Shown piece by piece: positions 6,584-33,852 of a stretch of 64,000 nt of DNA (positions are counted from its first letter, which is position 1; the number at the start of each line of letters is the position of its first letter). A program made the translations under genes and the position numbers. A model generated the notes under the pieces. The model was given only the letters and a program-made list of their open reading frames with translations. It had not been told where the DNA came from and searched no databases. This DNA is from Collimonas antrihumi (GTDB lineage Bacteria; Pseudomonadota; Gammaproteobacteria; Burkholderiales; Burkholderiaceae_D). The stretch covers positions 1-64,000 of the forward strand of contig NZ_JAGQED010000001.1 in the NCBI RefSeq assembly GCF_018304965.1. The letters run 5' to 3'.

Positions 6584-9408
6584 TGCGCCTTATCCAATAC
6601 ACGTCAAAAAGCTGGCGGCGTCCAGCTGCGGTGCTGCTGATCGTTGGTGCGCTGGCCGGGTGCGCGGCACAGCAACTTCACACGGACGGCCAGCGTCAGA
6701 TTAAAGAAGGTCATGTCGCGGAGGGACTCGCCAACATGCGCGAAGCCGTGCGGCAGGATCCGGGCAATCTGCCGTACAAGCTCGATTACATCAAACGCCT
6801 CGACGAAGAAACGAAAAAATTGATTCAGCAAGGCGATGAGCAGCGTTCGGCCGGCGATACCAAGGAAGCGCGCAATTCTTATCTGGAGGCGCTGCAACTT
6901 GACAGTTCGAACGAACGAGCCCGGCGCGGGGTGTCTGATATAGACATGGACATACGGCATAGGGACATCCTGGCTGAAGCCGAAAAGATGGACGCCGCCG
7001 GCAAATGGGATATGGCACGGGAACGCACGATGGTGGTGATACTGGAGAATCCCGCCAACCCCAATGCGCAGCTGTTGTTACGCAAGATTAATAACGAGAT
7101 CGACACCCAGCATCGCGCCAAAGAAGCGTTGACCGCTTCCCAGTCGGTAATGAAGAAACCGGTCACGCTGCAGTTCCGCGATGCCAATCTGCGCATGGTG
7201 TTCGAAGCGTTGTCCCGCACCACCGGCCTTAACGTGATCTTCGACCGCGACGTGCGCCCCGATCTTAAAACCACCATCTTTGTGCATGAAGGCTCGGTCG
7301 AAGATACCGTCAATCTGATTCTGTTGCAGAACCAGCTCGAAAAGAAAGTACTCAACGTCAATACGATGTTCATTTATCCGGCGACGGCGGCTAAACAAAA
7401 AGAATACCAAGAGTTGAAAGTGCGCACTTTCCATATTTCGAATGGCGATGCGAAATACATCCTGACAGTGCTCAAGTCGGTGCTCAAGATCAAGGATGCA
7501 TTGGTCGACGAACGCACCAATACGCTAGTCTTGCGGGATACGCCGGAGGCACTGGACGTAGCTGCCAAAGTGATTGCGGCCCACGATCTGGCGGATGCTG
7601 AAGTGATGCTGGAAGTCGAGGTGCTGGAAATTTCCCGCGATCGCTTGACCGACCTTGGCATAAGCTGGCCGAACAGTGCCACGATATCGACCCCGACAGG
7701 GACGGCCGGCTCCCTGACTCTTGGCGCTCTCGGTGATTTGACGCGCGGCCAGTTGCAAGTGACACCGTTCTCGCTGGGCATAGGTTTCAAGCTCCAGGAT
7801 ACCGACGCCAATCTGCTGGCTAGTCCGCGTATCCGCGTGCGCGATCACGAAAAGGCGAAGATCCTGATCGGCGACAAAGTACCTATCATCACCAATACCG
7901 TGACACCGATACAAACCGGCGCCTCGGTGGTCACCGGTTCGATCCAGTATATCGATGTCGGTATCAAGCTTGAGGCTGAACCGCATGTCTATCCGGAGGG
8001 CGAGGTCGGCATCAAGCTGAATCTGGAAGTCAGCAATATAGTCAAGGAAATCTCAGGGCCTTCCGGCTCGCTCGCCTATCAGATCGGGACCCGCAGCGCA
8101 ACGACAAGCTTGCGTTTGCGCGACGGTGAAACCCAGGTGCTTGGCGGCTTGATCAGCGATTCCGATCGCAATGCCGCTGCCAAGGTTCCCGGCCTCGGTC
8201 AATTGCCGGTCATTGGACGATTGTTCTCGGAACATAACGGCGACCATACAAAGACCGAGATCGTGCTATCGATCACACCCCGCATCATACGTGCCCAGGG
8301 TATTGCCGAAGACACAATGCGGGATGTCTGGTCTGGCACGGAAACCACGATTCACTCCGGTCAGTTCCGTCTTGATCCGATCTCTAGCGTGTCTGGCACC
8401 AGTAATGGCGTAAGCGGCAACAGCGTGCCGCGCGCCGATGCGGCGCCGGTACCGGCAGCCCCGGTAATACTGCCTGCGCCGCCTGTTGTTGTAGCCACGC
8501 CGCAGACTCCGCCAGCCACCCCGGCCATCCTGAACGGCGTGGTGCCAGATGCACCGGCGCCGTCGGCGACGCAGCCGCAAGGATTCGACGCCGTCAGTCC
8601 GGCCCCGTCCGGCGGCTACCAAGCTCCACCTGCGCCTGTGCCTGCTCCCATGCCGCCGCCGGCGCCTGTGCCGGTACCGGAGTCTGCCACGCCGGCGCCG
8701 ACGGATCAATCAGCGGCGCTGCCATCTGACAAGGTGCTGGCAACTGCTGCGCCAGCGGCCACACCGGCGGCCATGCCGGTCAGTGAATCGGCCGCAGGGA
8801 TACCTGCAGCCGTCGCCGCCGCTACGCCCGCAAATGCGGCGCCGGTCGTGGCCGCCGCTACTGTCCCGGCAGCGGCAGCGGCGGCAATGGTGGCAGGTGC
8901 TGCGGACAAGAGTGCTCAATCGGCAAGTCCCGCAGTCAGCCCGACCCCGACTGCAAGCACTGGCAACGGCGGCGCTAACATTTCCAATGGCAGACCGCAG
9001 ATCACCTGGGGCAAGCCTGAAAGTGTCAGGGCCGGAGATCAGTTCAAGATCACTCTTAACGCTTCCAGCTTCGATGGCATTCATTCACTGCCGTTCTATA
9101 TCCTCTACGACCCGCGGGTGTTGTCCTTTGTCGGCGCCAGCCCGGGGGTGGTCAGCAGCCGGGTCGGCGTCAGTAACATCGATCCGGTCATCAACGATAC
9201 CGCCGGCCGCGTCAATATGACACTGGACGCCGACGCCGGTAAATTCTTTGCCGGTTCGGGGGCGCTGATGAACCTGACATTCGCAGCCAAGATATCCAGC
9301 AAGCAGACACAAGTGGAAATGCAGCTGGCGCAGCTTGGCATTAGCGGCGGCGGTGCTTTGCGCAACATATCCCGGCCACAGCCGCTGAAACTGACGATCG
9401 AGCCATGA
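6583..9408 (+). CDS. gspD: Secretin lipoprotein with TPR and cohesin-like domains (GspD/MshL-like)
   Basis: At 941 residues it is longer than usual GspD (about 650-750). The signal peptide ends in a lipobox, ALAGC (Cys27). Residues about 35-170 are TPR-like helices (GHVAEGLANMREAVRQDPGN). Residues about 190-335 are secretin N-domains (VTLQFRDANLRMVFEALSRTTGLNVIFD). Residues about 338-570 form the secretin barrel domain, ending KTEIVLSITPRIIR. An Ala/Pro-rich linker of about 200 residues follows, then a C-terminal cohesin-like beta domain from about 803 (ITWGKPESVRAGDQFKITLN). It forms the outer-membrane gate of the system. The lipid anchor and TPRs are functions normally supplied by a separate pilotin. 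The first pseudopilin gene downstream overlaps its stop. Confidence 0.9.
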   Translation: MRLIQYTSKSWRRPAAVLLIVGALAGCAAQQLHTDGQRQIKEGHVAEGLANMREAVRQDPGNLPYKLDYIKRLDEETKKLIQQGDEQRSAGDTKEARNSYLEALQLDSSNERARRGVSDIDMDIRHRDILAEAEKMDAAGKWDMARERTMVVILENPANPNAQLLLRKINNEIDTQHRAKEALTASQSVMKKPVTLQFRDANLRMVFEALSRTTGLNVIFDRDVRPDLKTTIFVHEGSVEDTVNLILLQNQLEKKVLNVNTMFIYPATAAKQKEYQELKVRTFHISNGDAKYILTVLKSVLKIKDALVDERTNTLVLRDTPEALDVAAKVIAAHDLADAEVMLEVEVLEISRDRLTDLGISWPNSATISTPTGTAGSLTLGALGDLTRGQLQVTPFSLGIGFKLQDTDANLLASPRIRVRDHEKAKILIGDKVPIITNTVTPIQTGASVVTGSIQYIDVGIKLEAEPHVYPEGEVGIKLNLEVSNIVKEISGPSGSLAYQIGTRSATTSLRLRDGETQVLGGLISDSDRNAAAKVPGLGQLPVIGRLFSEHNGDHTKTEIVLSITPRIIRAQGIAEDTMRDVWSGTETTIHSGQFRLDPISSVSGTSNGVSGNSVPRADAAPVPAAPVILPAPPVVVATPQTPPATPAILNGVVPDAPAPSATQPQGFDAVSPAPSGGYQAPPAPVPAPMPPPAPVPVPESATPAPTDQSAALPSDKVLATAAPAATPAAMPVSESAAGIPAAVAAATPANAAPVVAAATVPAAAAAAMVAGAADKSAQSASPAVSPTPTASTGNGGANISNGRPQITWGKPESVRAGDQFKITLNASSFDGIHSLPFYILYDPRVLSFVGASPGVVSSRVGVSNIDPVINDTAGRVNMTLDADAGKFFAGSGALMNLTFAAKISSKQTQVEMQLAQLGISGGGALRNISRPQPLKLTIEP

Positions 9409-27176: not shown

Positions 27177-28130
27177 TCATTTGCCGGCCGCCAGCCGCCG
27201 CCGGTCCAGGGGTTTCAGGTCGGCCGCCATATGGCTGGCCAGATAATCGATGAATACTCGCATTTTCGGCGCCAGATAACGGGTCGGCAGGTATTGTATG
27301 AAGGCCGTGCCCTGATACGCGGCGATGAACTCCCAATCGGTGAGCACGGCTTTTACCAAGCCTTGCTCAAGGGCGTTGCGCACGATGAAATAGGGCAGGC
27401 AGCCGATACCCAGGTTTTGCAGCACGCCTTCCAGCCGCGCTTCACTGTGATTGACGACATAGCGTCCGCTGACCTTGATAATGGTGGTTTCACCCTGGCG
27501 CATGAAGCGCCAGTCGGAATCTCCCGGGGTTTCGCCGAGGTAAAGGCAACTATGGCCGCACAGGTCTTGCGGCTGTTTCGGGGTGCCGTGCCGGGCCAGA
27601 TAGCTGGGAGTGGCGCACAGCACCTGGTCGATCGACATCAGCGGCCGCGCCACCAGGCCGTCGGCTGGCTGGCTGGTGATGCGGATCACCAGGTCGGCAT
27701 CGTCATTGATCAAATCGACGTGACGATCGGTCAGGATCAGTTGCACATCGACTTGCGGATATTTTTCCAGGAAACCGGGTATCAGAGGAGTAACCACCGA
27801 TTTTCCGAAGGCTTTCGGCATGCCGACCCGCAACAGGCCCTGCGGCACCGCCACGAATTTATCGGCGACGTCCATCGCCGCCTTGGCCGCGTTCACCATC
27901 TCCAGGCAGCGCTGATAAGCCTCGCTGCCGGATTCGCTCAGGCGCAGTTTGCGCGTGGTTCGCTCCAATAACCTGACCGATAATGCCTGCTCGAGACGTG
28001 ATACCTGGCGGCTGACGGCCGAGGGCGTCATTCCCAGCTCCAGGGCCGCCGTCGAAAAGCTGCCGGTTTCTACTACCCGCACAAACACAGCCATGTCAGG
28101 CATCAGCTTGATATATCGGTTAGCTCCCAT
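27177..28130 (-). CDS. LysR-family transcriptional regulator
   Basis: This 317-residue protein has an N-terminal winged helix (MAVFVRVVETGSFSTAALELGMTPSAVSRQVSRLEQAL) and a substrate-binding domain with the TGSF-type and CrgA-like pattern (VGMPKAFGKSVVTPLIPGFLEKYPQVDVQLIL). It is transcribed divergently from the argininosuccinate-synthase-like gene, so it most likely controls that cassette. GGGAATAA precedes the ATG. The shared upstream region contains an imperfect inverted repeat suited to a LysR dimer pair. Confidence 0.93.
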   Translation of the reverse strand: MGANRYIKLMPDMAVFVRVVETGSFSTAALELGMTPSAVSRQVSRLEQALSVRLLERTTRKLRLSESGSEAYQRCLEMVNAAKAAMDVADKFVAVPQGLLRVGMPKAFGKSVVTPLIPGFLEKYPQVDVQLILTDRHVDLINDDADLVIRITSQPADGLVARPLMSIDQVLCATPSYLARHGTPKQPQDLCGHSCLYLGETPGDSDWRFMRQGETTIIKVSGRYVVNHSEARLEGVLQNLGIGCLPYFIVRNALEQGLVKAVLTDWEFIAAYQGTAFIQYLPTRYLAPKMRVFIDYLASHMAADLKPLDRRRLAAGK

Positions 28131-28162
28131 TTATTCCCGCCGCGCACAAGTGTTGTTCTGAA

Positions 28163-28208
28163 TTGATAGATTATCGTATTTGCCGGAATAAAACATAATA
28201 ACTATCAA
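28163..28208. promoter_or_regulatory. Candidate LysR binding site in divergent promoter
   Basis: TTGATAG (28163-28169) and CTATCAA (28202-28208) form an inverted repeat, extended inward by ATTAT and ATAAT. The spacing is long for one LysR half-site pair but fits a tetramer. It lies between the LysR and ASS-like starts. Confidence 0.5.
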
Positions 28209-28285
28209 TAACGATGTTTTTATTCGTATTTGTCTTTATTTGTGTCTTGATTAATTTACTCATGCCATCCAGTGCCGGAGCGCCT

Positions 28286-29524
28286 ATGATTCAGCCGCTA
28301 AAAAGAATACGCAGCATCGACGACCTGAAACTGGTCGCCGGCCATTGCGAGCATGTCCTGACTTTGTTCAGTGGCGGACTGGATAGCACTTACGCCTTGA
28401 AATGCCTGGTCGACAGCGGTTGCCGCGTCACGGCGCTGACAGTCGATCTGGGCGAGGGCGTCAACACCGCCGACCTGCAGCAGATCACCGCGCATTTTGG
28501 CGCGGAATTGCTGGTGATCGATGGCCAACAGGCGTTTGCCGAAGATGCCGTGCTACCAGCGATTCGCGCCAATGCCAAGTATATGGGCATCTATCCGATC
28601 AGTTCATCGCTGTCGCGACCCATCATTGCCCGTTTCGCGGTTGAAACCGCATTGCGCCTGGGCTGCAACGCCATCGTCCATACCGCCAACCAGTCGCAGA
28701 ACACGTTGCGTCGTTTGAATGGCGCGATCGCCCAACTTGGCTATGCCGGTTATTACGGCACACCCTATGAATACACGGCTATTTCGCGCGAAGAAAAAAT
28801 CGAAGCCTTGCGCGCCGCCGGCCTGCCGCACTTCCAGGCACGCGGCATCAGCGGCGACGCCAATCTGTGGTGCCGTGAATTCGAATCCGGTTCGCTCGAT
28901 AATCCGGAGTCGTTCTGGGTGCCGGAATCGCTGTTTGACTGGACCGCAGCGGTCGATCCGGCGCCTGCCAGTGTCGAAATCTCGATCAGGTTCGATGCAG
29001 GCCGTCCGGTCGCCATCGATGGCGAGGCTTTGCCGTTGGTGGAATTGATCGCGCGCCTTAACCAGCGCGTCGGTGCATTCGGTATCGGCCGTTATTGTGG
29101 CCTGGAACATCTGGAGCAGGGCGAAAAGGTGCTGGAAGTACGCGAAGCGCCGGCCGCCATGGCCTTGCTGGAAGCTTATCGACACCTGGAAACAGCAGTG
29201 CTGGATGCCGAACTGCTGCGCGAAAAGCTTAAGCTGGAACAGCTGTGGGTGCGCGAGGCGATCGAAGGCCGCTGGTTCACACCGTTGCGCGCAGCGACAG
29301 ACCGCTTCATCCTCGAAGCCGCCCAGCATGTCAGCGGCACCGTCAATTACCGCTTGCGCGCCGGCGCCGCCGATGTCTGCGCGATCCGGGCCGATGCGCC
29401 GCTGTACCTGACCGACCGCGACAGCTGGGAAAAAGAAATTGCAGCACAACGTTCCAGCCGCCACCTGTCATTGCCTTCGCATTCTGTATTGGACGCGAGC
29501 AAGCTGCTGGCCGAGGAAAATTAA
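28286..29524 (+). CDS. Argininosuccinate synthase-like ATP-dependent ligase
   Basis: This 412-residue N-type ATP pyrophosphatase has the PP-loop SGGLDS at residues 29-34, and TALTVDLGEG and YPISSSLSRPIIARF as in ArgG. True ArgG (about 400-445 residues) binds aspartate and citrulline through a TGKGNDQVRF motif; here the matching stretch reads TANQSQNTLRRLN, so the acceptor site has changed. The C-terminal half is only loosely ArgG-like. The ATG at 28286 has CCGGAG upstream; the longer frame begins with a hydrophobic run that is probably not translated. The stop codon directly abuts the ATG of the dioxygenase gene. I infer a ligase acting on an amino acid or ureido compound other than citrulline/aspartate. 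Confidence 0.82.
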   Translation: MIQPLKRIRSIDDLKLVAGHCEHVLTLFSGGLDSTYALKCLVDSGCRVTALTVDLGEGVNTADLQQITAHFGAELLVIDGQQAFAEDAVLPAIRANAKYMGIYPISSSLSRPIIARFAVETALRLGCNAIVHTANQSQNTLRRLNGAIAQLGYAGYYGTPYEYTAISREEKIEALRAAGLPHFQARGISGDANLWCREFESGSLDNPESFWVPESLFDWTAAVDPAPASVEISIRFDAGRPVAIDGEALPLVELIARLNQRVGAFGIGRYCGLEHLEQGEKVLEVREAPAAMALLEAYRHLETAVLDAELLREKLKLEQLWVREAIEGRWFTPLRAATDRFILEAAQHVSGTVNYRLRAGAADVCAIRADAPLYLTDRDSWEKEIAAQRSSRHLSLPSHSVLDASKLLAEEN

Positions 29525-30277
29525 ATGGAAATCGAGGCTTCGGCGCCAATCAAGATTGCGCCGCTCATCATTGACCATCTCAGCGGCGAGCTGCGCAGCC
29601 GGCTGTTCACTGTCCTCTCCGGCCGCGCCGTGCAAGCTGCCTGCGACGTCGATCTTGCGGCATGGAACGATTTCGCGGCTTGCTGGAACAACCTGCCGCA
29701 AGATAAATACATGGGCGACAACGGCAGCTATCGATTCCGCCGTTACGGTGCATTCGAGCTGGACGCGGCCGACGGCGTGCTGCAGCAAATGCCGCATGGA
29801 CCTTACGTGCAGCCGAGCTACATCAATAAGCTCAATGGTGACATCGCGCGTCATTTCGCGCCGCTGGAGCAGCACTTTGTCGATAATCCTTTCCTGTCCG
29901 GCTTGCTGCTGTCTCTGGCGCAGGTGTTTGACCAGGTTGATGGCTGCAGCGGTAAATGGGATATCCGCCTGCATCCTTACCGGATACGCGCCAGTTCCCA
30001 TACGCCCGGTAATCCGACGCCGGAAGGATTGCATCGCGATGGTGTCGATTACATCGTCACCATGATGGTGCGCCGTCACAATGTGGCTGGCGGTGAAACC
30101 TATATTACCGATGTTGCCGGCAAACTGATGTGCCGCTATACCTTGACCGATCCGATGGACCTGATGCTGGCCGACGATGCCCGCACCATGCACGGCGTGA
30201 CCAAGGTGTTGCCGTTTGAAGAAAAACGTGAAGCATTCAGAGATGTGCTGGTGATTGCCTACACCAGAATTTCCTGA
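29525..30277 (+). CDS. 2OG-Fe(II) dioxygenase, free amino acid hydroxylase family (BsmA/IDO-like)
   Basis: This 250-residue protein resembles the 2OG-Fe dioxygenase family of isoleucine 4-hydroxylase (IDO) and BsmA. The iron ligands fit HRD in EGLHRDGVDYI and the distal His in ARTMHGVTKV; an Arg for 2-oxoglutarate follows in the C-terminal strands. The FRRYGAFELD and HPYRIRA blocks are also family-like. These enzymes hydroxylate free aliphatic amino acids in the cytoplasm. The gene starts at the base after the ASS-like stop, so the two proteins are almost certainly made together. The amino acid substrate is unknown. Confidence 0.82.
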   Translation: MEIEASAPIKIAPLIIDHLSGELRSRLFTVLSGRAVQAACDVDLAAWNDFAACWNNLPQDKYMGDNGSYRFRRYGAFELDAADGVLQQMPHGPYVQPSYINKLNGDIARHFAPLEQHFVDNPFLSGLLLSLAQVFDQVDGCSGKWDIRLHPYRIRASSHTPGNPTPEGLHRDGVDYIVTMMVRRHNVAGGETYITDVAGKLMCRYTLTDPMDLMLADDARTMHGVTKVLPFEEKREAFRDVLVIAYTRIS

Positions 30278-30327
30278 TGCAACAGACCAGACTGACCTGA
30301 CCAATATCCTCGGTGCTCCCGCCGTTT

Positions 30328-30366
30328 GTTCCGCTCAGCCTCCACCTAGGCGGAACGTTTTTTTTC
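30328..30366 (+). terminator. Intrinsic terminator after the dioxygenase gene
   Basis: GTTCCGC (30328-30334) pairs with GCGGAAC (30350-30356), followed by a T8 run. It separates the ligase/dioxygenase pair from the exporter gene, which may be reached by read-through or have its own promoter. Confidence 0.75.
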
Positions 30367-30372
30367 TTAACT

Positions 30373-30393
30373 GATAGCGCTGTTAGCGCTATC
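30373..30393. promoter_or_regulatory. 9-bp inverted repeat just before exporter ribosome binding site
   Basis: GATAGCGCT-GTT-AGCGCTATC is perfect and ends two bases before the GGAG ribosome binding site of the EamA gene. It may be an operator or an mRNA hairpin that limits translation. Confidence 0.5.
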
Positions 30394-30407
30394 TGGAGTA
30401 AAGCGAA

Positions 30408-31424
30408 GTGACAAACGAAGTGATAAATATCTCTGCCGGCGGTTCTGCCAAATCCTCTGGCAATTCTTCCGCCAAAGGTCTCTGGCTAGCCGATTTGCTG
30501 TTATTGCTGGTCGCGATAGTGTGGGGCACCAGCTATGGTGTCGCCAAGGATGCGTTGGTGTTTTACCCGGTGCTGGGTTTTGTGGCGATTCGTTTTTGCA
30601 TGACTTTTTTATTGTTGTTACCCAGTTTGCGTCAACTGGCCACGCCGGAAGGTCGGGCAGCGTTGCGGGCGGGATTGCCTTTGGGTTTGATTCTGCTTGC
30701 CATCTTTATTTGCGAGACCTTCGGCGTGGCCTTGACCCAGGCCTCGAATGCCGCTTTCCTGATCAGCCTGTGTGTGGTCTTTACACCGTTCGTCGAATGG
30801 CTGGTGATGGCGCAACGTCCCAAGGCCAGCGCGTTCGTGGTGGCTTTCATCTCGCTCTTCGGCACCTGGCTGCTGACCATCGGCAGCGATCTGAATTTCA
30901 ATCTGGGCGACGGCCTGATGCTGGCGGCGGCCTTGTTGCGCGCCTTCATGATGGTCATGACCAAGCGTCTGACGGTCAATAAAAACATGTCCAACCTGAC
31001 CCTGACCGCGGTGCAGTCCGGGGTGGTGGGGTTTGGCTGTTTGCTGGTTGCCAGCCTGTTCATGCAAGGCGGCCTGCCGCCTCTGCCCGGCGATCCCGGC
31101 TTCTGGGTGAGTACGGTTTATCTGGTGTTGTTTTGCACGATCTTTGCTTTTTTTGCGCAGAACTATGGTGTCCGGCGCAGCAATCCCACCCGGGTTTCCC
31201 TGTTGATGGGGAGCGAGCCGGTATTCGGTGCGCTATTTGCTTCCTTTTGGCTGGGCGAGAAACTCGGTACGCTGTCCTGGATCGGCGGCGCGCTGATTGT
31301 CGGCGCTACGTTGTGGGCGACCTTGCCGCGTTCGGTGTTTAATTTTGGTGCGTTTTTTTCGACGCGTAGCATCAAGCAGGAAAGTGCGCCTGTCATCGGT
31401 GTCGGCGCCGATTCTAGTCAGTAA
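30408..31424 (+). CDS. EamA/DMT-family exporter
   Basis: This 338-residue inner-membrane protein has about ten transmembrane helices in two EamA repeats (LLLLVAIVWGTSYGVAKDALVFYPVLGFVAIRF in the first; the second ends WIGGALIVGATLWATLP). Members of the family export amino acids and related metabolites. The frame starts at a GTG with GGAGTAAAG upstream. Next to a ligase and an amino acid hydroxylase it is a good candidate for exporting their product, but a terminator separates them. Confidence 0.9.
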   Translation: MTNEVINISAGGSAKSSGNSSAKGLWLADLLLLLVAIVWGTSYGVAKDALVFYPVLGFVAIRFCMTFLLLLPSLRQLATPEGRAALRAGLPLGLILLAIFICETFGVALTQASNAAFLISLCVVFTPFVEWLVMAQRPKASAFVVAFISLFGTWLLTIGSDLNFNLGDGLMLAAALLRAFMMVMTKRLTVNKNMSNLTLTAVQSGVVGFGCLLVASLFMQGGLPPLPGDPGFWVSTVYLVLFCTIFAFFAQNYGVRRSNPTRVSLLMGSEPVFGALFASFWLGEKLGTLSWIGGALIVGATLWATLPRSVFNFGAFFSTRSIKQESAPVIGVGADSSQ

Positions 31425-31962
31425 TCACGCAGATTTTATCGGCAGCTGCATTCCAGATAAGTCCTAAATAAGTCCTAACGAAAATCAACGAAAACCATGT
31501 TTCGATAGAAGAAAATATCAGCGTCTTTACTATTGCCGTGTGGAAATAATTGATTTATCCTGAATCATCGAATAAATGAATTTGAATGAATTTGAATTGT
31601 GCAACGAGAAGTAAACACCGGATGTAAAGCGTTGATTTTTTACACGGCATGCGCTCCAAAAGAGTCACCAATGCCGTTGTTAATCCTCAAGAGGGAAGTC
31701 CCATGATTTGCGCCAGATTCATTCCAGTTTTCATTCTTTCGCGCTGCGCATCAGACGCAGCCCATCACCGCTTCATCCATCTTCCGGCATTGCCAGCGCT
31801 AGCGTTAATGCTGCGGCCATCAAGTTAACGGACGCTACGTCCCGTTAAGCACTGCATCACAACCGGTGATGCAGACTCCAGCGCCAAGCCAACTTTGCAT
31901 TGCTGATCGCAGTGCAGGGCGGCGGCGTCTTTCATCTGTTCCATTCAAGAGGAATTAGCGAT
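31425..31962. other. 538-base AT-rich intergenic region upstream of the sedolisin
   Basis: It contains the tandem repeat ATAAGTCCTAA x2 (31457-31478), followed by CGAAAATCAA and CGAAAACC. Two hairpins follow: TTAACGG/CCGTTAA around 31825-31848 and CTGCATCAC/GTGATGCAG at 31852-31874. It probably forms a long structured 5' leader for the peptidase gene. No ORF of note. Confidence 0.5.
31852..31874 (+). promoter_or_regulatory. Leader hairpin upstream of sedolisin gene
   Basis: Perfect 9-bp arms (CTGCATCAC, GTGATGCAG) with a 5-base loop, directly after a second hairpin. No T-run follows, so it is not a terminator; it may stabilise or control the message. Confidence 0.4.
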
Positions 31963-33852
31963 ATGAAATCGAACGTATCAGCAGGAAATTTTGCGATTCC
32001 CCAGGCTTCGGCATTGTCATTGGCGCTGTCCCTGGTGTTTGCATCTTTGTCCGGCGTCACACACGCCGCCGCAGTGGACAACAGCACTTGGGTCGCCACC
32101 AGGACCCAGGCGTTTTTGCCGCAAGTGCAAGCCAATCAAAAGAGCGTGGCAGCCGATGCCAGCGTGGTCACGCCGGCAGCATCGGCAGTGCAACTGGCGC
32201 AGGGCGAACCGGTTCACGTGACGCTCAGTTTGAATTTGCGTAACGAGGCCAAGCTCGATAAATTTCTGCAAGATCTGCATACCCAAGGCACCGCTTCCTA
32301 CGGAAAATTTCTGACGCCGGCACAATTCGCCGCAGAATATGCGCCTGCGGAAAAAGATGTGGCGGCCGTGGTTGCGCATCTGAGCAAATCTGGCTTTGTT
32401 AACATCCGGGTCGCTCCGAATCGTCAACTGGTGACAGCCGACGGCACGGCAGCGACGGTGCAAACCGGTTTCCGCACCGCGCTGAAACGCTTCCAGCAAG
32501 ACGGCCGCAACGTATTTGCCAATACCGATGCAGCGCAAGTACCGCAGGCGTTGAGCGGTATTGTCGGCTCGGTGCTGGGTTTGCAAAACGTGGCGATTGC
32601 CCACACCCATCATCGCTGGGTGGCCAATACTGAAGCCGCCGCAACCTCGCAGGCACAGGTTCTTCGCACTAATGCAACGCCAATCGCCACGCCGCATAGC
32701 CCGTCGCAATTCCCTGCGATCTATAACGCCGGCGCCACGCCAACTGCCTCCAATACCGTAGTCGGCATTATTTCGGAAGGCGATATCAGCCCGACGATTA
32801 CCGATCTGCAAGCATTCACTTCAGCCAAAGGTTTTGCTACCGTCAATACCGCCGTGGTGCAAACCGGTCCTGTCGGCAGCGACTACAGCGACACTTCCGG
32901 CCAGGTCGAATGGAACCTGGACAGCCAGACCATCACCGGCACTACCGGCGGCGCCGTCAAGCAACTGATATTCTACGCATCGCCCGACATGAGCTTCAGC
33001 GGCATCACCGCTGCCTACAACCGCGCTGTGACTGACAATGTGGCTAAAGTCATCAACGTTTCGCTCGGCGGTTGCGAATCGGATACCCATGCCGACGGGA
33101 CTCAGGCAGCCGACGACAATGTCTTCAAACAAGCTGTGGCCCAAGGCCAGACTTTCTCCATTTCGACCGGAGATGCGGGTGCCTATAACTGCCAGACCAG
33201 TTCGATTTCCGGCGCTCCTGGCGTACCGGCAAGCAAATCGACCTATGACGTCAGCGAACCAGCTAGCTCACCTTATGTGATCGCTGTCGGCGGCACCACC
33301 CTGTACACGAATTCCGGCGCCTACAGCAGTGAAACTGTCTGGAACGAAGGCTTGAGCGCGATCGGCACCTACGACGCCGCAGGCGACTACGATTACACCA
33401 AGCGCCTGTGGGCAACCGGCGGCGGCTACAGCAAGTACGAAGCGGCGCCTTCCTATCAGTCGGGCGTGATTGCCGCCGGCAAGACCACCCGTGGCTTGCC
33501 GGACATTGCGTTCGATGCCGCCAGCGCCAGCGGCGCCACCATCTACTATAACGGCCAGACCGGCACGGTAGGCGGCACCAGCCTTGCGGCGCCGATCTTC
33601 ACCGGTGTCTGGGCGCGCCTGCAAACGGCCAACAGCAATGCATTGGGGTTCCCGGCAGCCAGCTTCTACAAATATTTCCGGCTGGCCGCCAACGCCTCGC
33701 TGCGGCATGACGTCACCTCCGGTACTAACGGCGCCAGCAGTTCTTACGGCTACAAAGCTGCCGCAGGTTGGGACGCAACTACAGGTTTCGGTAGCCTGAA
33801 CATTGCCAACCTCAATACCTTCATCAAGAATACTTCGGACTTTGCGCGTTAA
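31963..33852 (+). CDS. Secreted sedolisin (S53 serine-carboxyl peptidase)
   Basis: This 629-residue preproenzyme has a signal peptide to about residue 36 and a pro-domain (about 60-220; PVHVTLSLNLRNEAKLDKFLQDLHTQG...YGKFLTPAQFAAEYAP). The catalytic domain has Glu316 and Asp320 in GQVEWNLDSQT, oxyanion Asp404 in STGDAGAYN, and nucleophile Ser540 in GGTSLAAP. The C-terminal calcium site is near GWDATTGFGSL. Sedolisins are acid-active endopeptidases released outside the cell. AAGAGGAATTAGCG precedes the ATG at 31963. The T2SS-like machine encoded in this window could export it, but nothing shows this directly. Confidence 0.94.
   Translation: MKSNVSAGNFAIPQASALSLALSLVFASLSGVTHAAAVDNSTWVATRTQAFLPQVQANQKSVAADASVVTPAASAVQLAQGEPVHVTLSLNLRNEAKLDKFLQDLHTQGTASYGKFLTPAQFAAEYAPAEKDVAAVVAHLSKSGFVNIRVAPNRQLVTADGTAATVQTGFRTALKRFQQDGRNVFANTDAAQVPQALSGIVGSVLGLQNVAIAHTHHRWVANTEAAATSQAQVLRTNATPIATPHSPSQFPAIYNAGATPTASNTVVGIISEGDISPTITDLQAFTSAKGFATVNTAVVQTGPVGSDYSDTSGQVEWNLDSQTITGTTGGAVKQLIFYASPDMSFSGITAAYNRAVTDNVAKVINVSLGGCESDTHADGTQAADDNVFKQAVAQGQTFSISTGDAGAYNCQTSSISGAPGVPASKSTYDVSEPASSPYVIAVGGTTLYTNSGAYSSETVWNEGLSAIGTYDAAGDYDYTKRLWATGGGYSKYEAAPSYQSGVIAAGKTTRGLPDIAFDAASASGATIYYNGQTGTVGGTSLAAPIFTGVWARLQTANSNALGFPAASFYKYFRLAANASLRHDVTSGTNGASSSYGYKAAAGWDATTGFGSLNIANLNTFIKNTSDFAR

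Follow-up and report, generated by a model that had tools for sequence, protein, structure and literature searches.

A putative nitrile amino acid cassette in Collimonas antrihumi and other bacteria: an ArtA-related, ArgG-like enzyme paired with a PF10014 dioxygenase and an exporter

The window in this work is a stretch of 64,000 nucleotides of Collimonas antrihumi DNA (assembly GCF_018304965.1, contig NZ_JAGQED010000001.1, positions 1 to 64,000). Of concern here is a cassette of four genes within it, which encode a protein related to argininosuccinate synthase (ArgG), an Fe(II)/2-oxoglutarate dioxygenase of family PF10014, an EamA-type exporter and a divergent LysR-type regulator (Table 1). 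Judged from sequence and modelled structure, the cassette is probably a route to a nitrile amino acid that is oxidised and exported. Its parts are known families; their combination, spread and fusion appear to be new. All four genes are intact, and the ATG of the dioxygenase lies directly 3' of the TAA stop (29522-29524) of the ArgG-like gene.

Is the ArgG-like protein an arginine enzyme? By its alignments and predicted fold it falls with the nitrile synthetase ArtA and not with ArgG. Its best solved sequence matches are the nitrile synthetase structures 9leh and 9lei (349 and 348 bits), the best ArgG reaching 163 bits, and a profile of 45 relatives scores 524 bits with ArtA versus 250 bits with ArgG. 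An AlphaFold model (predicted local distance difference test score, pLDDT, 91.4) fits ArtA with 45-46% identity at 1.5-2.2 Å, versus 19-30% identity at 3.4-6.5 Å for ArgG structures. The protein matches the NCBIfam model NF038212, argG_rel, with 620 bits (cut-off 425), and is thereby a member, by score, of a family named 'argininosuccinate synthase-related protein', a name that assigns no function. This score, like the 227 bits of the dioxygenase for PF10014, is well outside what chance would give. Five NCBIfam ArgG models also matched the protein, each with a score short of its cut-off (score/cut-off 227/334, 217/512, 216/268, 125/603 and 59/657 bits). A sample of 398 genomes from the phylum has proteins over the argG_rel cut-off in 5, one of them the genome of the window, and 14 control genomes have none. 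Elsewhere in the same genome there is a second ArgG-like gene (G000:C55; 26% identity, 486-amino-acid open frame), which makes it improbable that the cassette enzyme serves arginine synthesis. A gene of the arginine pathway that has diverged, and whose dioxygenase neighbour is unrelated to it, would account for the ArgG family domains, yet it sits badly with the sub-threshold ArgG scores, the separate ArgG-like gene and a gene pair that is kept across four phyla and fused; such a reading is hardly credible. True ArgG was rejected as an identity for the cassette enzyme on the ArgG cut-offs, the separate gene and an altered motif.

The ArgG-like protein has the SGGLDS motif for adenosine triphosphate (ATP), and it has HTANQSQNTLRRLN in place of the ArgG block HGATGKGNDQVRF. 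The preliminary description, made from the letters of this DNA, had pointed to a kept SGGLDS and a replaced TGKGNDQVRF block in a ligase that was no longer ArgG, and it is borne out on both counts, by the sequence and a 91-row family alignment as well as by the scores and the ArtA kinship above. This alignment is made up of the window sequence, 10 rows from the same genus, among them the genome of the window itself, and 80 named loci, which include some of the same Collimonas genomes. TGKGNDQ(V/I)R is found in 10 of 10 ArgG rows, with Gly at the diagnostic column; Gln occupies this column in 89 of the 91 family rows, and the remaining two have a gap and a His. According to one preprint, ArtA carries out amide-to-nitrile dehydration only, and its Q146, S197 and D199 are named as the key amide-interacting residues (PMC13060819). 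Q138, S189 and D191 of the window protein match these three by exact spacing (51 and 2); the chain numbering of 9leh/9lei is offset by a constant 29 when read against the sequence alignment. As Q138 lies within the altered block, TANQSQNTLRRLN carries the amide-contacting Gln of ArtA. The Ser and the Asp are present in 91 of 91 family rows, and in 9 and 10, respectively, of the 10 ArgG rows. On alignment, only the Gln among the amide-contact residues distinguishes the family from ArgG.

The ligand positions of ArgG, in human numbering, are those that we take to form the citrulline site and the aspartate site (T119/D124). Seven of the eight citrulline positions were located (all but Y87), and five of the seven are kept (S92, N123, R127, S180 and E270), with some variation over the 91 rows (T for S92 in 17, D for E270 in 16). 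Both aspartate positions examined are changed, T119 to N135 and D124 to T140. Kinship with ArtA and the change of both aspartate positions argue for amide dehydration rather than ligation, and ATP-dependent coupling to another amine or acid, which had been proposed for this enzyme, is on these grounds not upheld. Could it nevertheless still be a ligase, in which an activated amide or ureido group is coupled to some amine that is not aspartate, so that an amidine or guanidine results? The ArgG fold and ATP site are kept, as are several citrulline contacts, and the site that once took aspartate might since have adapted to a different amine. However, the nearest relative of known function is a nitrile synthetase that acts by dehydration and shares the residues in contact with the amide, and no ArgH-like lyase is annotated beside the cassette in five annotated rhizobial and Agrobacterium plasmid regions, for which the gene table is incomplete. 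We consider a ligase quite unlikely.

A nitrile-forming scheme can be drawn as follows. The ArgG-like enzyme would bind a free, amide-terminated amino acid roughly at the ArgG citrulline site, most likely asparagine, with glutamine or a hydroxylated form as alternatives. In ArgG itself, the ureido oxygen of citrulline becomes adenylated and is displaced when aspartate attacks. Here, ATP would adenylate the amide oxygen and, as the aspartate site, the source of the nucleophile, is lost, adenosine monophosphate would leave to yield the nitrile. The PF10014 dioxygenase would oxidise the same side chain, most simply by C3 hydroxylation, before or after the nitrile step; EamA would pump the product out and protect the maker, and LysR would control the operon. 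A Pfam search of the cassette genes gave no glutaminase domain in any of them, a point in favour of the scheme. We infer the nitrile chemistry of the window protein, the substrate, the order of steps, the product and an antimetabolite- or warhead-like role.

The ArgG-like enzyme and the dioxygenase are firmly linked and form a genuine two-enzyme unit with an exporter. Counts over 80 relatives concern the best 80 of 148, that is, the nearer ones. The dioxygenase gene is directly downstream of the ArgG-like gene in 56 of the 80; an EamA gene is within 2.5 kb in 53 of these 56 loci and in 0 of the 24 that have no dioxygenase, and a divergent LysR gene accompanies 39 of the 53 loci with both dioxygenase and exporter. 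Both enzymes are found in the identical 10 of 15 Collimonas genomes. An order-level sample of 399 genomes, two of them Collimonas, has the ArgG-like enzyme in three, and the same three hold the top dioxygenases (335-363 bits, the next being 264); 74 further genomes of this sample have lower-scoring PF10014 relatives only, without the ArgG-like enzyme. Divergence of the ArgG-like enzyme over 51 loci, near-copies excluded, is correlated with that of the dioxygenase (r 0.83) and the exporter (r 0.93), with 0 of 2000 permutations as high, although common ancestry adds to these correlations. The arrangement first described, a ligase stop abutting a dioxygenase, followed by an exporter and next to a divergent LysR, is thus confirmed; the pair stays together in the genome-neighbourhood comparison that had been called for, and the small exported amino-acid product then envisaged is supported as probable.

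Fusion of the two enzymes into one open frame of 654-665 amino acids is present in three records, Rhizobium sp. 007 (L188:2196-4160) and the loci L110 and L111 (1444-3438). The Pfam check of the fusion covers the Rhizobium sp. 007 record, and the L110 and L111 fusions may be one event, as they have equal scores and are of the same genus. A tree of 84 rows (without L001-L010, L014-L024, L026 and L033) places the dioxygenase-exporter version in Pseudomonadota, Myxococcota, Cyanobacteriota and Actinomycetota; its label for non-ribosomal peptide synthetase (NRPS) loci was assigned by hand from a neighbour scan. Bacteria of root nodules and bacteria associated with plants also carry the enzyme pair on plasmids typed as conjugative. 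The transporter is instead upstream in the plasmids of rhizobia and Agrobacterium vitis, and in a Bradyrhizobium plasmid the pair is present but EamA is not matched within 2.5 kb. In a Burkholderia cenocepacia replicon (L105), about 1.1 kb separates the ArgG-like gene from the PF10014 gene that comes after it. Sixteen actinobacterial loci among L069-L100 have the ArgG-like gene near NRPS genes, and scanned NRPS-side loci also hold genes for an L-amino acid ligase, a thioesterase, an M18 aminopeptidase or a PhyH dioxygenase.

What does the dioxygenase do? Residues H170, D172, H223 and R239 are invariant in 35 rows; we take the HxD...H to be the iron site and assign the residue roles on the same assumption. 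The predicted structure (pLDDT 94.9) is nearest in fold to 3pl0, an uncharacterised BsmA homologue, and to HrmJ, 8w8h, BelL, IDO and TqaL. The sequence matches are to the BsmA homologue (149 bits), HrmJ (9dqp; 124 bits) and IDO (40 bits), so that of the earlier label 'BsmA/IDO-like' the BsmA part stands, and HrmJ is nearer than IDO. With NF042428, the model for HilB-type isoleucine 4-dioxygenases, the score is 35 bits against a cut-off of 350. The window's genome has one PF10014 match, and 1 of 14 control genomes has one. The enzyme is likely a hydroxylase. Near relatives form rings, however, and hydroxylation is therefore not the sole possible outcome: HrmJ and BelL are described as cyclising a nitro amino acid to a cyclopropane, and TqaL as making an aziridine (PMC10764440). 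The nitrile could thus form and the dioxygenase then cyclise or desaturate, with the electron-poor nitrile used like the nitro group of HrmJ and BelL substrates, and HrmJ is indeed the nearest characterised relative by sequence and among the nearest in fold. This alternative we regard as unlikely, as two other versions of the system, described below, use enzymes similar to the asparagine oxygenase AsnO, which are known as hydroxylases, and a cyclopropane made from asparagine or glutamine nitriles would be geometrically awkward. In addition, HrmJ gave hydroxylation and nothing else with a carboxylate analogue (PMC10764440).

Clues to the substrate come from the neighbours of relatives. Sulfobacillus and Streptomyces plasmids have more distant ArgG-like relatives, with Q-N kept, beside TauD-type dioxygenases whose best solved match is AsnO (191 bits for Sulfobacillus, 202 for Streptomyces). 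Of eight AsnO residues compared, seven are kept in the Sulfobacillus dioxygenase (E125, N146, H155, E157, D241, H287 and R305), N158 being D, and D241 is also kept, by eye, in the Streptomyces enzyme; the choice and roles of these residues are our assumption, and some are common to a wider hydroxylase family. AsnO-like partners in two distant versions suggest an asparagine-like substrate. A Streptomyces locus (L076:6001-9474) has the ArgG-like gene followed by a gene for an EgtA-type glutamate-cysteine ligase (412 bits, above the cut-off of 371) and then by a nitrilase-like gene (191 bits, below the cut-off of 503), possibly a gamma-glutamyl nitrile pathway; the EgtA-type ligase matched no second locus among the loci then in the set. 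Salmonella diarizonae (L048) has an NRPS gene before the enzyme pair and a complete seryl-tRNA synthetase gene (8103-9386) after it. A second seryl-tRNA synthetase elsewhere in that genome scores higher (477 and 613 bits), and the extra copy beside the pair may possibly serve self-protection. A blastn search (E 1e-20) with the Salmonella ArgG-like gene gave no match in Escherichia coli genomes. Taken together, the neighbour clues favour, with moderate confidence, an asparagine-like amide substrate and C3 oxidation.

If asparagine is the substrate and C3 is oxidised, the product would be 2-amino-3-cyano-3-hydroxypropanoate, an amino-acid cyanohydrin, which would be a look-alike of serine and threonine able to release hydrogen cyanide. 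On this view four phyla would have a mobile cyanogenic route in the cassette, and its exporter would be an immunity gene kept by non-makers. A glycine-based hydrogen cyanide synthase is known, and the cyanohydrin route would be independent of it. The AsnO-like substitutes in two distant versions and the extra seryl-tRNA synthetase gene allow this proposal, which is speculative and, in our estimate, improbable.

Several findings weigh against an oxidised nitrile amino acid as the product of the cassette. Ser189 and Asp191 are common to ArgG and hence not diagnostic, and two citrulline positions of ArgG (human numbering) are altered in the window protein, S189 to E198 and Y282 to R286. Nitronorleucine or branched amino acids, rather than asparagine, are the substrates of the closest dioxygenases that have been characterised. 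Three of the 56 dioxygenase loci are without the exporter (L040, L048 and L079), and the L040 dioxygenase is split over two frames. Sixteen of the 24 relatives (out of 80) in which the dioxygenase is absent are beside NRPS genes, so the family is not tied to a single product; the NRPS adenylation specificity codes beside relatives were uninformative, and we know of no specificity that codes such as DMSSLGLVY match. The Sulfobacillus ArgG-like protein has 270 bits for an argG_rel cut-off of 425, and for this reason may not share the chemistry. A nitrilase-like neighbour occurs in one locus, the sole other match among the loci then in the set being weak (29.5 bits, L079). Lastly, the open-licence literature yielded no activity data for any bacterial family member.

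The exporter has a history of its own within Collimonas. Four genomes (G005, G006, G008 and G013) lack both enzymes and have an intact EamA gene; in a fifth enzyme-less genome, of 1.7 Mb, EamA is absent too. The G005 and G008 loci (L186 and L187) have LysR and EamA adjoining at the same site, with the same downstream gene. Differences between their two EamA genes at codon positions 1/2/3 number 46/30/113, mostly third-position as expected for a gene under selection, and it looks as if the exporter has been retained by non-makers for immunity. As the full cassette occurs in distant taxa, it is simplest to suppose that the enzymes were lost and the exporter stayed; possibly, the enzymes were instead gained in the other lineage.

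Between the dioxygenase and exporter genes is a conserved intergenic element (Table 1), a candidate small RNA or attenuator. It consists of a nearly invariant leader of about 33 nucleotides, a terminator hairpin with a variable loop and a T run. It is single-copy and beside EamA in 14 of 15 Collimonas genomes (L171-L184), over which it was aligned, and it lies 5' of EamA in cassette holders and 3' of EamA in cassette-less genomes. The fold z score for 30296-30412 is -2.34, and an Rfam search of the intergenic stretch gave no match at E up to 1. A leader peptide within the element was judged unlikely by eye, there being a stop codon just before it. The palindrome is found, with small changes, in the seven cassette-bearing Collimonas sequences that were aligned, and L024 has matching changes on both arms. 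A scan for promoters and terminators did no better than chance (1 found versus 2.5 expected, and 5 versus 4.7), and it omits the intergenic hairpin, perhaps because of its loop limit of 8. An alternative start of the ArgG-like gene at 28214 is also open; the ATG in the table was chosen because matches to relatives begin there or later. The closest named genomes to the window proteins are Collimonas (95-98% protein identity). Located 3' of the exporter, at 31900-33852, is a gene whose product by eye resembles a secreted sedolisin-type protease; the gene keeps this place in both cassette-less Collimonas loci compared (L186 and L187).

Table 1. Genes, codons and intergenic features of the cassette (window positions)
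Feature	Coordinates	Strand	Remarks
LysR-type regulator	27177-28130	-	PF00126/PF03466; divergent from cassette
ArgG-like enzyme, 412 amino acids, nearest ArtA nitrile synthetase	28286-29524	+	NF038212, 620 bits
Codon of Gln138, by spacing the equivalent of ArtA Gln146 (amide contact)	28697-28699	+	
Codons of Ser189-Gly-Asp191, equivalents of ArtA Ser197 and Asp199	28850-28858	+	
PF10014 Fe(II)/2-oxoglutarate dioxygenase, 250 amino acids	29525-30277	+	PF10014, 227 bits
Conserved intergenic element: leader, terminator hairpin (30328-30356), T run	30301-30365	+	candidate small RNA or attenuator
Palindrome GATAGCGC-5-GCGCTATC, just 5' of exporter ribosome site	30373-30393		operator or hairpin
EamA/DMT-type exporter	30408-31424	+	GTG start; PF00892, 117 bits, two stretches

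How does the cassette compare with known systems? ArtA/NitB of the auranthine pathway (9leh, 9lei) resembles the cassette enzyme in fold, 46% identity, ATP site and amide-contact Gln, Ser and Asp. According to the preprint, ArtA serves an NRPS product, auranthine (PMC13060819), whereas the partners of the cassette enzyme are a dioxygenase and an exporter, and its setting is bacteria and conjugative plasmids. The IDO/Hil operons are similar in having a PF10014 dioxygenase, an RhtA-type exporter (in some of them), a LysR regulator (Hil) and a small amino-acid product, and the antimetabolite AMKP is tied to them (PMC3684760). Unlike these operons, the four genes at 27177-31424 include no short-chain reductase (HilC/AR), HilA or HilP, and have the ArgG-like enzyme instead. 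The nitrocyclopropane synthases HrmJ and BelL have the PF10014-type fold of the cassette dioxygenase (26-30% identity over the fold) and, likewise, an amino acid with an electron-withdrawing end group as substrate. PesC of nitrilobacillin is comparable in that ATP-dependent nitrile formation is coupled to oxidation, but it is asparagine-synthetase-like, acts on a peptide C-terminus and uses glutamine (PMC13060819). The ATP-dependent nitrile enzymes named in that preprint are QueC/ToyM, ArtA/NitB, PesC and CalN (PMC13060819). A description of the whole cassette was not found in the open-licence literature, of which long result sets were covered in part, and for ArgG-like nitrile enzymes the sole relevant open-licence paper found was the nitrilobacillin preprint (PMC13060819).

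ATP-dependent nitrile enzymes are few, and the cassette would add a compact bacterial pathway that is present in four phyla, with the enzyme pair also on plasmids and sometimes fused. An NCBI family without a functional name thereby gains a function that can be tested, and the expected product is a free nitrile amino acid of a new kind. The pair may also constitute a ready two-enzyme system for nitriles in water. With makers and exporter-only non-makers in one genus, the question of self-protection is directly testable in Collimonas.

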